Assembly: GCA_021845905.1 (NCBI GenBank)
Contig: JAJZVA010000016.1
Coordinates: 1 to 51,522, forward strand
DNA from: Pseudomonadota bacterium
Lineage (GTDB): Bacteria; Pseudomonadota; Alphaproteobacteria; Micavibrionales; UBA2020
Direction: 5' to 3'
DNA length: 51,522 nt
In this document: positions 16,083 to 20,226 of the stretch, in pieces
How the letters are laid out: every line of letters begins with the position of its first letter
How positions within the stretch are numbered: the stretch's first letter is position 1
Position numbers and translations under genes: made by a program
Notes under the pieces: model-generated
What the model saw: the letters and a program-made list of their open reading frames with translations, nothing else
Databases searched by the model: none
What the model was told of the DNA's origin: nothing

Positions 16083-16736
16083 TCAGAAAAATTTTCCATG
16101 CGCGAGGAAATGCGCCGTCTGATCGATGACGCTTTTTTTGGAAGGCATGAAAGTGTGCGAAACGCGCAACGTGATATGGTCTTTCATGCCGTCTATTTTC
16201 GTGCTTGCGACGGAAACTTTTCCGTCGTCTGCGCCGGGGATGAACCATGACATGACGGGATCGAAAGACCTGTCTCCGGCGATGACGCCAAGGTCGTAAT
16301 CGACGGCGCCGAAGATATGCCTGAACGCCGTCTGGTCTGTCACGAGCTGTTGTCCGGCGGGGCCATAGAGCATTTTATAGAGCGGGAAATCGGCGAAAAT
16401 ATCGGCGAGCTCGCTGCCATGGTTCGGAGTGCCGATCATGACCACCCGTCCGGCGCCGGCTGGTTTGAATTTGTGAAGATAGGCGCGGATGATAAGGCCG
16501 CCGAGGGAGTGTCCGACAAAGTGGAGCGCGTCCGTCTCGTCGTCGCGCCTTTGCAGGATTTCCGCATGCACGTCGCCTATCAGCTCTTCTATGGGCTTTT
16601 TGAGCGATGGATAGTCGATATTGAAGACTCTATAGCCTTTTTGCGCAAGGCCATGTTCCATGCCCTTCATGGAGCTCTTTCCGCGGAAGATCCCGTGGAG
16701 CAGGACGACGGTGTCGGCGGGCGGATTGCCCGTCAT
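16083..16736 (-). CDS. Alpha/beta-hydrolase, lipase-like
   Basis: A 217-residue alpha/beta-hydrolase. VVLLHGIF (10-17) supplies the oxyanion hole, GHSLGG holds the nucleophile Ser77, and TPNHGSELAD is the segment typical of cytoplasmic lipases and PGAP1-like acyl esterases. The catalytic Asp is probably in PGADDGKVSV and the His in RVSHTFMP. There is no signal peptide. The start overlaps the end of the upstream dehydrogenase gene by 4 bases, so the two are translationally coupled and may act in the same lipid or fatty-acid pathway. Substrate unknown. Confidence 0.85.
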   Translation of the reverse strand: MTGNPPADTVVLLHGIFRGKSSMKGMEHGLAQKGYRVFNIDYPSLKKPIEELIGDVHAEILQRRDDETDALHFVGHSLGGLIIRAYLHKFKPAGAGRVVMIGTPNHGSELADIFADFPLYKMLYGPAGQQLVTDQTAFRHIFGAVDYDLGVIAGDRSFDPVMSWFIPGADDGKVSVASTKIDGMKDHITLRVSHTFMPSKKSVIDQTAHFLAHGKFF

Positions 16737-17497
16737 TTGGGAGCGAGGCGGACGGCGCCGTCGAGGCGAATGGTTTCGCCGTTGATCAGTTCGTTCTCGC
16801 AGATGTGCAACACCAGCTTTGCATATTCCGCGGGTTTGCCGAGACGCTTGGGAAAAATAGTCGTGGCGATCAGGCTTTCCTGGACTTCGGGCGTCATCCC
16901 ACCGAGCATCGGCGTTTCGATCAGCCCCGGCGCGATGGTGACGACGCGAATACCAAAGCGTCCCAGTTCCCGCGCGGCGGGAAGCGTCAGGGCGACGATG
17001 CCGCCCTTTGACGCGGAATAGGCGGCCTGGCCGATCTGTCCCTCATAGGCGGCGACCGAGGCTGTGTTGACGACGAGGCCGCGCTCGCCTGTTTCATTCA
17101 AAGGTTCGAGCGTGGACATCTCCGCCGCGGCGAGGCGCATCATGTTGAAGGAGCCGACAAGGTTGACGTTCAGCACTTTCGAGAAGAGCCCGAGATCGTG
17201 CGGCGCCTCGCGGCCGACGATCCGCGATCCGGCGACGATGCCGGCGCAGGATATCAATATGCGGGCAGAGCCATGCGCCTTCTTCGCGGCGTCCAGCGCG
17301 GCTTTGGCTGAAGCCTCGCTCGATACATCACATTCGATGGCGAGACCGTTGATTTCCTTGGCGACGGCTTCGACGTTTGCTTTGTTGATGTCGAGCAATG
17401 CGACCTTTGCGCCCGCTGATGCGAGCGCGCGCGCCGTCTCCGCGCCCATGCCTGAGCCGCCGCCTGTAACAACCGCCGCCAAACCTTTAACATCCAT
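16733..17497 (-). CDS. Short-chain dehydrogenase, 3-hydroxyacyl-CoA dehydrogenase type-2 like
   Basis: A 254-residue SDR enzyme. The nucleotide-binding motif TGGGSGMG is at 11-18, Asp36 (LLDINK) points to NAD, and the catalytic set is Ser147, Tyr160 and Lys164 (YSASK). The overall pattern, with APGLIETPMLGGMTPEVQES and FPKRLGKPAEYAKL, matches the HSD17B10-type 3-hydroxyacyl-CoA dehydrogenases used in fatty-acid or isoleucine breakdown. AGGAGA lies about 7 bases before the ATG. A TATAAC box near 17533 on this strand, just beyond the terminator at 17558-17589, could be its promoter. Confidence 0.88.
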   Translation of the reverse strand: MDVKGLAAVVTGGGSGMGAETARALASAGAKVALLDINKANVEAVAKEINGLAIECDVSSEASAKAALDAAKKAHGSARILISCAGIVAGSRIVGREAPHDLGLFSKVLNVNLVGSFNMMRLAAAEMSTLEPLNETGERGLVVNTASVAAYEGQIGQAAYSASKGGIVALTLPAARELGRFGIRVVTIAPGLIETPMLGGMTPEVQESLIATTIFPKRLGKPAEYAKLVLHICENELINGETIRLDGAVRLAPK

Positions 17498-17551
17498 GTT
17501 CGTTCTCCTGTGAGCTGTGCCTTGTTCATGTGGTTATAGCTCTTATCTGGC

Positions 17552-17660
17552 CAAAGCAAAACCCCCGTGGCTTGCGCTACGGGGGTTTTAATTTTCGGGT
17601 AATCAAGTGGGGTTTGGGGGGTTCAGGGGAGTTTAGCTGCCTGCTTGATTACCCTGGCGG
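17552..17660 (-). ncRNA. Candidate small RNA with long-range stem, C-rich loop and strong terminator
   Basis: On the reverse strand GGGTAATCAAG (17654-17644) pairs perfectly with CTTGATTACCC (17607-17597) and encloses a 36-base loop containing ACTCCCC, ACCCCCC and ACCCC. A strong terminator hairpin follows at once (17589-17558). A C-rich loop held open by a stem, followed by a terminator, is the layout of alphaproteobacterial small RNAs that pair with ribosome sites. No protein frame crosses it. The promoter is not clear; a TTGATT lies on this strand near 17741. It could instead be the 3' end of the bcp transcript. Confidence 0.4.
17558..17589 (-). terminator. Strong bidirectional terminator
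   Basis: AAAACCCCCGT (17558-17568) and ACGGGGGTTTT (17579-17589) form a perfect 11-bp stem around GGCTTGCGCT. It separates bcp and the candidate small RNA from the dehydrogenase gene. The rest of 17661-17866 is AT-rich (runs such as TTATAAATATAATG) with no gene seen. Confidence 0.85.
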
Positions 17661-17866
17661 ATCCGTTAGGACCCGACCAATTCAAATTCCGGTTTAAATT
17701 AAGATGATCACAATTAACGCCTATCCCAAGAATAAATCAAGAAGAATTTAGTTAACATGCAAAAAAATATTGCATAATGCACGCATATGTATGCGGTAGA
17801 GTATATACAAGGGAATGTTATAAATATAATGTTTAAGTTTATAAACGTAATTTAAACATTTGATAT

Positions 17867-18328
17867 TTATAAATTTTTTATAGATTTAAGCACATCCTCG
17901 GCGTGGCCCGGAACCTTCACTTTTCGCCAAATGTTCCTGATGATGCCTGTCTTGTCTATTAAGTAAGTTGCCCGTTCTATCCCCATGTATTTTCTGCCGT
18001 ACATCGATTTTTCGACCCAGACTCCGAACGATTCGCAGATGCTGCCGTCTTCATCGCTGATGAGCGGAAAGGGAAGTTCATATTTCTTGGCGAATTTCTC
18101 GTGTTTGGCGAGGGAGTCTTTCGAAACGCCGAAAACCCTGGCATTCATTTTTTTAAAGCGCGGGAGCGTGTCGCGGAATGCGCAGGCTTCCATGGTGCAA
18201 CCGGGCGTATCGTCCTTGGGGTAGAAGTAAAGGACGATATTGGATCCCTTGAGGCTGTTCAGGCTTACGGGCCCTTCAGCCGTCTGGCCTTTGAAGGCGG
18301 GGGCTTTTTTGCCGATTTCAAGCGTCAT
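17867..18328 (-). CDS. bcp: Thioredoxin-dependent peroxiredoxin Bcp
   Basis: A 153-residue BCP/PrxQ peroxiredoxin that reduces peroxides with electrons from thioredoxin. The peroxidatic Cys44 and resolving Cys49 are in TPGCTMEACAFRD, with the supporting motif YFYPKDD before them. FGVSKDSLAKHEKFAKKY and IERATYLIDKTG are also typical of the family. AGGAGAA lies about 5 bases before the ATG. It sits 9 bases after the upstream membrane-anchored protein gene, in an operon with that gene and the AI-2E-type permease. Confidence 0.93.
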   Translation of the reverse strand: MTLEIGKKAPAFKGQTAEGPVSLNSLKGSNIVLYFYPKDDTPGCTMEACAFRDTLPRFKKMNARVFGVSKDSLAKHEKFAKKYELPFPLISDEDGSICESFGVWVEKSMYGRKYMGIERATYLIDKTGIIRNIWRKVKVPGHAEDVLKSIKNL

Positions 18329-18337
18329 GGTTTTCTC

Positions 18338-19132
18338 CTAAAGCTTCGGGAACAGGCCAACAGGGTCTTTTTTTACGAACAGCGGTTTGTGAGGGTCCAG
18401 TGTCAGCGTCACGCCGTTGAGTGCTTTCAGTTTGATGAGGTGCGGCATGTCGATATCCGCGACGTTTTTGCCTTCCGGAAATCGCAGAATGAATTGAAAT
18501 TCGAAATCCGCCAGCTGTTTGAAAAGCTTCTGCGGGATATGGGTTTCCGGAATGGACAAAACGGCAACGGTGCTGCTGTTCAGTTTTTCAAAGAAGCTGC
18601 TTTGCGCCGCCTCCATCCAGCGCAGGTTGAGCGTTGGATAGACGGCATAAGGGTTGGAGGTATATTCTTTGGTGAAATGGGCGTTCGTGGCGTTGATGAG
18701 GTTCGCGTAGGCCGTAAAATCCGGCTTTGCGCCATCGTAGTCGAATATGAGGATGTTGACGATGTCGCCTTTATGCGTCCAGCTCTTCAGAACGGTTTCC
18801 AGTTTCTGGATTGTTTTTGCAGGGGCTTGCGGCAGGCCGTCGAATCGGAATTGCAGGTTGATCTGGCGCTGGGAGATCGTCACGGCGGGCAAGTTCCCGG
18901 GCGTCCATGTCATCCTGCCATCTGGCGCGTAAGAGAACGTGCCGACGTCGACGGTGACCGGGTTGTTGTCTGCCGGGAAATCTGCGGGCGTGATGCCATC
19001 GCCGGCGTAATAGGAAATTGGCGCGGACGTGGGATGACCGGAAAGCGGTGGATGCATCGACCGCCAGCTCATGTAGCCGATGACGGCGACAAGGCAGAGG
19101 GTGGCCAGTATATTGAAGATTTTATCGCTCAT
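18338..19132 (-). CDS. Membrane-anchored protein of unknown function
   Basis: A 264-residue protein with one N-terminal transmembrane helix (FNILATLCLVAVIGYMSW, about 5-22) and a periplasmic body. The body has strand-helix segments such as INLQFRFDGLPQAP, DIVNILIFDYDGAKPDF and TVAVLSIPETHIP, suggesting an alpha/beta barrel. A relation to DUF3142 is possible but not certain. The start overlaps the stop of the upstream permease by 4 bases, and bcp follows after 9 bases, so the three are one operon. Confidence 0.7.
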   Translation of the reverse strand: MSDKIFNILATLCLVAVIGYMSWRSMHPPLSGHPTSAPISYYAGDGITPADFPADNNPVTVDVGTFSYAPDGRMTWTPGNLPAVTISQRQINLQFRFDGLPQAPAKTIQKLETVLKSWTHKGDIVNILIFDYDGAKPDFTAYANLINATNAHFTKEYTSNPYAVYPTLNLRWMEAAQSSFFEKLNSSTVAVLSIPETHIPQKLFKQLADFEFQFILRFPEGKNVADIDMPHLIKLKALNGVTLTLDPHKPLFVKKDPVGLFPKL

Positions 19133-20226
19133 TGTCCGCTTCTATGCAGGTGTGACGGGGATTTGCTGCTGCCGCTCCAGTCCATGATCAGGCTGTAGGC
19201 GATGGCCAGCGTCGTCGGGCCTATAAAGACGCCGATAAAACCGAAAGCCATGATCCCGCCCAGAACGCCGAGCAGGATCAGCAGGATGGGCATGTCGTCT
19301 CCGCGCTTGATGAACCTTTTGATGAAATAGGGCTTGAGGAAATTGTCGACCGAGCTGATGACCAGAACGCCCCACACGATCATAAAAAGGCACCAGGCCA
19401 TATGGCCTTGCGTGTAAAGCCATATCGCTGCGGGAACCCACACGACCGGCACGCCCATGGGGATGAAAGCAAGGAAGAAGGTCATAAGACCGAGGAACGT
19501 GGCGCCGGGCACGCCCGAAATCCACAGGCCGAAGGCGGCCAGCGCCGCCTGCAACAGGGCCGTTCCAAGAATACCGTAGACGACGCCGATCAGCGTGCTT
19601 TTGGTAACGCCGAGAACGCGCTCGCCGCGCGCGCCCGTGAAACGCTTGATCAGGTTGTCGAGCCGCACGGCGACGCGGGTGCCGTAGCGGAAGAAAAAGT
19701 ATGAGATGGCGACGCCAAGCGTGACGTCCAGCAGGCCGCGGCCGATCATGCCGCCCATATGGATCAGCTTTTGCGACGTGGGAGCCGCGTATTCCTGCAA
19801 GTCGGAACTGAGACGCATCGTGTCGCCGGAGAAGTACGTCCAGCCCTTTTCCAGCCAATGGCCGATATAGGCGATGCCACCGAGCATCCTTGCCGTATCT
19901 GACGTGTTGTTTTGCAGGATGTGCTGCAATGCGTCATAAACTTTCGTGAAGCTGTCGGCGAGGCTCGAGCCGATGATGATGAGGGGGAAAATAAAGCAGC
20001 AGGCAAGGAAAAGGGTCATCAGCGAGGCGCTTAATGCGGTGCGGCTGTGCAGTTTGCGGTTCAGCCAGGTGAAAGCGGGCCACGTGGCGAGCGTAAAGAT
20101 GGCGGCGAGTAACAGCGCGGGAACGAACGGCGCGATGACGATCAGGCAGAAGATGATAATGATTGTGAAGCCGGACACGCCCGCGATGAGTTGGTAAATC
20201 TGGTTCTGGTCTTTGAAGTCGATCAT
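19129..20226 (-). CDS. AI-2E/PerM-family permease
   Basis: A 365-residue inner-membrane protein of the AI-2E exporter (PerM, TqsA) family. It has the usual layout: two or three N-terminal helices (FTIIIIFCLIVIAPFVPALL and ASLMTLFLACCFIFPLIIIG), a soluble middle region (about 90-170), then five helices including FLGLMTFFLAFIPMGVPVVW and ILLILLGVLGGIMAFGFIGV, the most conserved motifs of the family. Members export autoinducer-2 or act as sodium/proton antiporters, so substrate is open. It heads the operon with the membrane-anchored protein and bcp and diverges from an amino-acid permease. Confidence 0.88.
   Translation of the reverse strand: MIDFKDQNQIYQLIAGVSGFTIIIIFCLIVIAPFVPALLLAAIFTLATWPAFTWLNRKLHSRTALSASLMTLFLACCFIFPLIIIGSSLADSFTKVYDALQHILQNNTSDTARMLGGIAYIGHWLEKGWTYFSGDTMRLSSDLQEYAAPTSQKLIHMGGMIGRGLLDVTLGVAISYFFFRYGTRVAVRLDNLIKRFTGARGERVLGVTKSTLIGVVYGILGTALLQAALAAFGLWISGVPGATFLGLMTFFLAFIPMGVPVVWVPAAIWLYTQGHMAWCLFMIVWGVLVISSVDNFLKPYFIKRFIKRGDDMPILLILLGVLGGIMAFGFIGVFIGPTTLAIAYSLIMDWSGSSKSPSHLHRSGQ

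Follow-up and report, generated by a model that had tools for sequence, protein, structure and literature searches.

What lies on the minus strand between a peroxiredoxin gene and a dehydrogenase gene in this contig of an alphaproteobacterium of the order Micavibrionales (JAJZVA010000016.1; the whole stretch of 51,522 nucleotides that was analyzed is referred to as the window)? From the letters alone, an earlier note had proposed a small RNA of about 100 bases whose C-rich loop pairs with Shine–Dalgarno sites, had raised the possibility of a G-quadruplex on the opposite strand, and had called for a covariance search in relatives and a target prediction for the loop. The features of the locus are as follows.

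16733..17497, minus strand: downstream dehydrogenase (SDR by reading), which adjoins the RNA within the genus only
17532..17538, minus strand: TATAACC box between the terminator and the dehydrogenase, found in G005 too
17553..17706, minus strand: predicted small RNA gene of about 150 nt, its 5′ end placed by a promoter-like box, with homologues in 16 of 142 genomes of the order
17558..17589, minus strand: terminator hairpin H3, followed by GCTTT, with perfect 11-bp arms at 17579–17589 and 17558–17568
17597..17607, minus strand: 3′ arm of hairpin H2, CTTGATTACCC, forming a perfect 11-bp stem with the 5′ arm
17608..17643, minus strand: C-rich loop of H2, 36 bases, with 31 of 36 columns invariant in 14 sequences
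17622..17633, minus strand: loop core, AACTCCCCTGAA, of which AACTCCCCT is common to both families
17644..17654, minus strand: 5′ arm of H2, GGGTAATCAAG; H2 cells are 100% paired in both alignments
17655..17679, minus strand: hairpin H1, variable in sequence, with compensatory changes
17713..17718, minus strand: candidate −10 box GTTAAT, 17 nt downstream of the −35 box
17736..17741, minus strand: candidate −35 box CTTGAT, part of a CTTGMT block conserved upstream of H1 in most family members
17867..18328, minus strand: bcp, an AhpC/TSA peroxiredoxin (PF00578, E 1.2e-40), the upstream neighbor

The perfect 11-bp stem, the 36-base C-rich loop and the 11-bp terminator that had been described were all recovered on the minus strand. 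The whole H2 hairpin covers 17597–17654, and its loop contains CTCCCC, CCCCCC and CCCC as read on that strand. Folded as RNA, positions 17552–17660 have an energy of −40.7 kcal/mol (z −5.5), and none of 200 dinucleotide shuffles was as stable. The predicted fold has CAGG paired with CCUG, so that the loop core is partly hidden. Directly 5′ of the H2 stem lies a further hairpin, H1, which is absent from the earlier note.

A DNA search of 55 genomes, comprising that of the window and its relatives, returned strong matches within the window's own genus and family, plus a weaker one in G021, which belongs to another family. A covariance model of H1 and H2, built on 14 sequences, matched 16 of the 142 genomes of the order, namely 14 of 18 in the window's own family and 2 of 7 in family f5; the stem and the loop are thus conserved in relatives. 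A second model, to which f5 members had been added, retrieved the same 16 genomes, with E values of 3.2e-13 for G021 and 1.8e-10 for G027, both of which belong to its training set; a partial match in G061 (E 0.46) was taken as chance. With either model, the window's own genome was the sole match in a class-wide sample of 385 genomes (none in the 384 others), in large scans whose stricter filters might overlook diverged copies. On this sampling, the RNA appears to be confined to two families.

The pattern CTNAACTCCCCTGAA, with one mismatch allowed, matched 51 of the 142 genomes of the order; we treated these matches as chance, since they are mostly single-mismatch and in model-negative genomes, and since a reversed control pattern also matches many. 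The one in G028 falls in coding DNA as read by eye, and the stretches around four others (L130–L133) gave no covariance-model match. Run on 33 of the 80 dehydrogenase-relative loci (L022–L054 of L022–L101), the model matched only L022, taken as the contig of G005. A search of viral contigs for CAGCTNAACTCCCCTGAA returned none. Rfam 15 at gathering thresholds found only five tRNAs across the whole window; with E values up to 5, its matches at the locus were all far below gathering scores. A search of the literature found no published report of the RNA.

Single-sequence folds gave three hairpins in all 16 members, G021 and G027 among them; in these two, the sequences of H1 and of the terminator look unlike those of the remaining members. 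In the model-fitted alignment of the 16 sequences, 98.7% of cells pair and two-sided changes occur in 8 of 20 pairs, values reached by none of 500 shuffles; sliding the partners lowers pairing to 17.6–53.8%. Because such an alignment leans toward the model, a MAFFT alignment and the single-sequence folds matter as checks. The MAFFT alignment (14 sequences) gave a weaker result, with two-sided changes in 3 pairs, a count reached by 55 of 500 shuffles; its covariation score and percentage paired were reached by none of the 500. For H1, two-sided changes were found in 7 of 9 pairs in the model-fitted alignment versus 2 of 9 with MAFFT. Mean identity is 95.7% in the H2 loop (14 sequences), compared with 73.6% in bcp coding DNA (13 genomes) and 52% in the leader. 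The C tracts beyond the loop core differ between the families, and the first C tract alone is kept in both. As judged from these alignments, H1 is constrained in structure and free in sequence, and H2 with its loop is constrained in sequence, a pattern that fits a recognition loop. A protein-coding reading was ruled out, the conserved part differing in length by non-multiples of three. These length differences, together with the compensatory changes in H1 and the near-frozen H2 and loop, argue for a structured non-coding RNA.

Upstream of H1, most family members carry CTTGMT, then a GAATCG-like block, and an AT-rich hexamer 17 nt after CTTGMT. These conserved boxes suggest a start near 17706 and an RNA of about 150 nt, with a gene reaching further 5′ than had been proposed, through H1 and a leader. 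The small RNA with a C-rich loop is strongly supported, by its homologues, the compensatory changes, the near-invariant loop and a terminator in each; its predicted length exceeds the proposed 100 bases. A consensus promoter scan found no site for the RNA. In G009 and G014 there is a single promoter-like block only, of the CTTGCCGAATCG type. Further upstream, many relatives (L138–L147) carry another promoter-like block, in which CTTGCCGAATCG precedes TTATGTAAT; it is conserved among them but degenerate in the window (about 17765–17800), and may be an additional promoter or the site of a regulator.

In 15 of the 16 RNA loci, from both families, the bcp gene precedes the RNA on the same strand; its stop is 135–272 nt from the loop core, and no obvious terminator was seen by eye in the gap. 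Such an arrangement would suit an RNA derived from the bcp 3′ UTR, in which the bcp transcript reads into the element, is processed, and reports bcp expression. We consider this origin unlikely. The promoter-like block near H1 is conserved in most members, and G001 has no bcp at the locus, yet retains both the RNA and a promoter-like upstream box, which argues that the RNA is a gene of its own. Indeed, no AhpC-TSA (PF00578) match was found anywhere in the G001 assembly (L145; 93% complete, 460 contigs), versus 4 to 10 per genome in all six others in the same search. The RNA and a bcp match (E 1e-30) are both missing from four family genomes (G002, G004, G012 and G016, two of which are only 88% complete) and from the f5 genomes G030 and G039; bcp is present but the RNA absent in the remaining three f5 genomes and in each of the 16 genomes sampled from other families. 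This pattern across genomes indicates that bcp is the ancestral neighbor, but that the RNA can outlive it.

The dehydrogenase adjoins the RNA in 4 of the 16 loci, namely those of the window, G007, G006 and G005, all in one genus. The TATAAC box noted earlier after the terminator is present, as TATAACC. Separate transcription of the dehydrogenase is plausible in view of this box, its counterpart in G005 and the terminator, but the consensus promoter scan gave no site. On the other side of the locus, at 18338–20226, an AI-2E-like transporter gene (by reading) and a fast-diverging gene are closely packed with bcp on one strand; the genus preserves the order transporter, fast-diverging gene, bcp, although identity in relatives is only 22–61% for the middle gene.

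We consider it probable that the locus is a stand-alone gene for a trans-acting regulatory RNA, whose C-rich loop, by analogy with known regulators, would pair with mRNAs, probably with Hfq. The analysis directly shows the conservation of the RNA, its structure, its persistence without bcp, and an hfq gene in the genome. Transcription would start at the RNA's own promoter in the bcp–dehydrogenase gap and end at the H3 terminator; H1 would fold the 5′ end, and H2 would display the fixed C-rich loop with its core, AACUCCCCU. This core may then pair in trans with G-rich ribosome-binding sites or mRNA leaders, probably assisted by Hfq, and the translation or stability of the target mRNAs would be altered, both the targets and the sign of the regulation being putative. 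Hfq is encoded in all six genomes checked, the window's own included, and with the intrinsic terminator in the homologues this makes the RNA, on genomic grounds, a candidate member of the class of Hfq-dependent trans-acting sRNAs.

Both families retain the core AACUCCCCU, whose complement, AGGGGAGUU, looks like a ribosome-binding site. With one mismatch, TTCAGGGGAGTT was found at 23 places in three genomes, three of which are the RNA genes themselves; of the other 20, some immediately precede start codons: several of these are in G011, two are in G005, and a single one is in the window's own genome, at G000 C11:207456, ahead of a small protein whose N-terminus looks exported. The G011 genes that have near-complements of the core at their starts (L175, L178, L181 and L186) also encode N-termini that, as judged by eye, appear to be exported. 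In six genomes, CAGGGGAG occurs close to an ATG at 49 places, one of them in the window's own genome; among the 29 of these that were examined, no orthologous target set emerged, and the only resemblance was a distant one between two response regulators. When duplex energies were computed for 46 crude ORF starts of the window, whose positions are uncertain, no target was convincing. The target prediction for the loop, which consisted of these limited searches, thus produced no conserved target. Matches at start sites do not prove pairing, because such sites are ribosome-binding sites anyway, and the mode of action therefore rests on the analogy with GsrN and PmaR (see below); in that light, the proposed pairing of the loop with Shine–Dalgarno sites is plausible. 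The lasting link with bcp hints at a role in stress, which is a guess.

The repeated C tracts, the near-fully frozen loop, and the lack of a conserved mRNA target in these searches would also be compatible with a loop that binds a protein, or acts as a decoy that captures 16S-like or G-rich RNA, instead of controlling selected mRNAs. This is distinctly unlikely in our judgment, given that Hfq is present, that the C-rich loops of GsrN and PmaR are described as pairing with mRNAs, and that the families share no C tract but the first. It is an improbable speculation that the multi-tract C loop might act as a general competitor, mimicking the 3′ end of 16S rRNA or sponging G-rich RNA or protein and so damping the translation of a class of mRNAs under peroxide stress, having stood beside bcp since before the two families split.

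The G tracts reported on the plus strand are present, but the G-quadruplex pattern read into them did not hold: the standard motif (four runs of at least three G, loops of 1–7) has no match on the plus strand of 17551–17700, and one match appears if loops of up to 9 are allowed, a 9-base loop being needed. Opposite the G021 loop, two GGGG tracts are left. The G-quadruplex idea is weak, and the conserved element is the RNA on the opposite strand. A mere terminator with a chance hairpin, or a plus-strand G-quadruplex element controlling the dehydrogenase, would draw on the G tracts and on the dehydrogenase just downstream in the window, but is highly improbable and largely refuted by the comparative data, namely the conservation and covariation and the adjacency of the dehydrogenase in only four loci of 16, as well as by the missing standard motif.

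How, then, does the preferred reading, a trans-acting RNA with a pairing loop, compare with known systems? GsrN of Caulobacter is described as a stress-linked RNA of roughly 100 nt whose C-rich loop, its most conserved part, base-pairs with a run of G in the leader of katG (PMC5869019). The RNA studied here is likewise an sRNA whose C-rich loop is its most conserved part; compared by description, however, GsrN carries this loop in its 5′ part, whereas here H1 precedes the C-rich hairpin, and the RNA belongs to a different order. The GsrN homologues found by BLASTn are reported from Caulobacteraceae only and near general-stress genes (PMC5869019); GsrN is characterized by a place near general stress regulators and a sigma-EcfG promoter, and the neighbors here are bcp and the dehydrogenase. 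PmaR of Agrobacterium is reported to engage its targets through a single-stranded C-rich loop, four changes in which abolish regulation (PMC6234868), and mutation is described as showing that the C-rich loops of GsrN and PmaR are both needed for action on targets (PMC5869019, PMC6234868). PmaR shares with the present RNA the C-rich loop and the narrow lineage, but by its description belongs to Agrobacterium and close Rhizobium and occupies a different genomic place.

Members of the Hfq-linked alphaR8 family (SisA–D of Caulobacter) are described as pairing with mRNAs through a C-rich single-stranded core (PMC12559287). That core, UUUCCUCCCU, lies downstream of a weak hairpin, whereas here a strong 11-bp stem closes the loop that contains AACUCCCCU; UUUCCUCCCU is absent from the minus strand of 17552–17706. 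SmelA075 and SmelA099 of the Rhizobiales, as reported, form three or four hairpins, each with CCUCCUCCC, on variable stems (PMC3927594). Anti-Shine–Dalgarno-like loop motifs on stems are common to these RNAs and ours, but here a single C-rich loop with another motif sits on a near-invariant stem, and CCUCCUCCC is absent from the RNA. The motifs that define the alphaR8 and CCUCCUCCC-loop RNAs are thus absent, and, compared by description, the RNA differs from GsrN and PmaR in genomic place. A well-supported family without an Rfam match is added from a poorly studied bacterial order, together with a covariance model that works, a defined core for the loop, and a persistent association with a peroxiredoxin gene. 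It further suggests that regulators of the C-rich-loop type have appeared repeatedly across the class in sequences unrelated to one another, a point relevant to the origin of such sRNAs; the locus represents a real and lineage-specific sRNA family, probably a new one, of an already familiar type of regulator.
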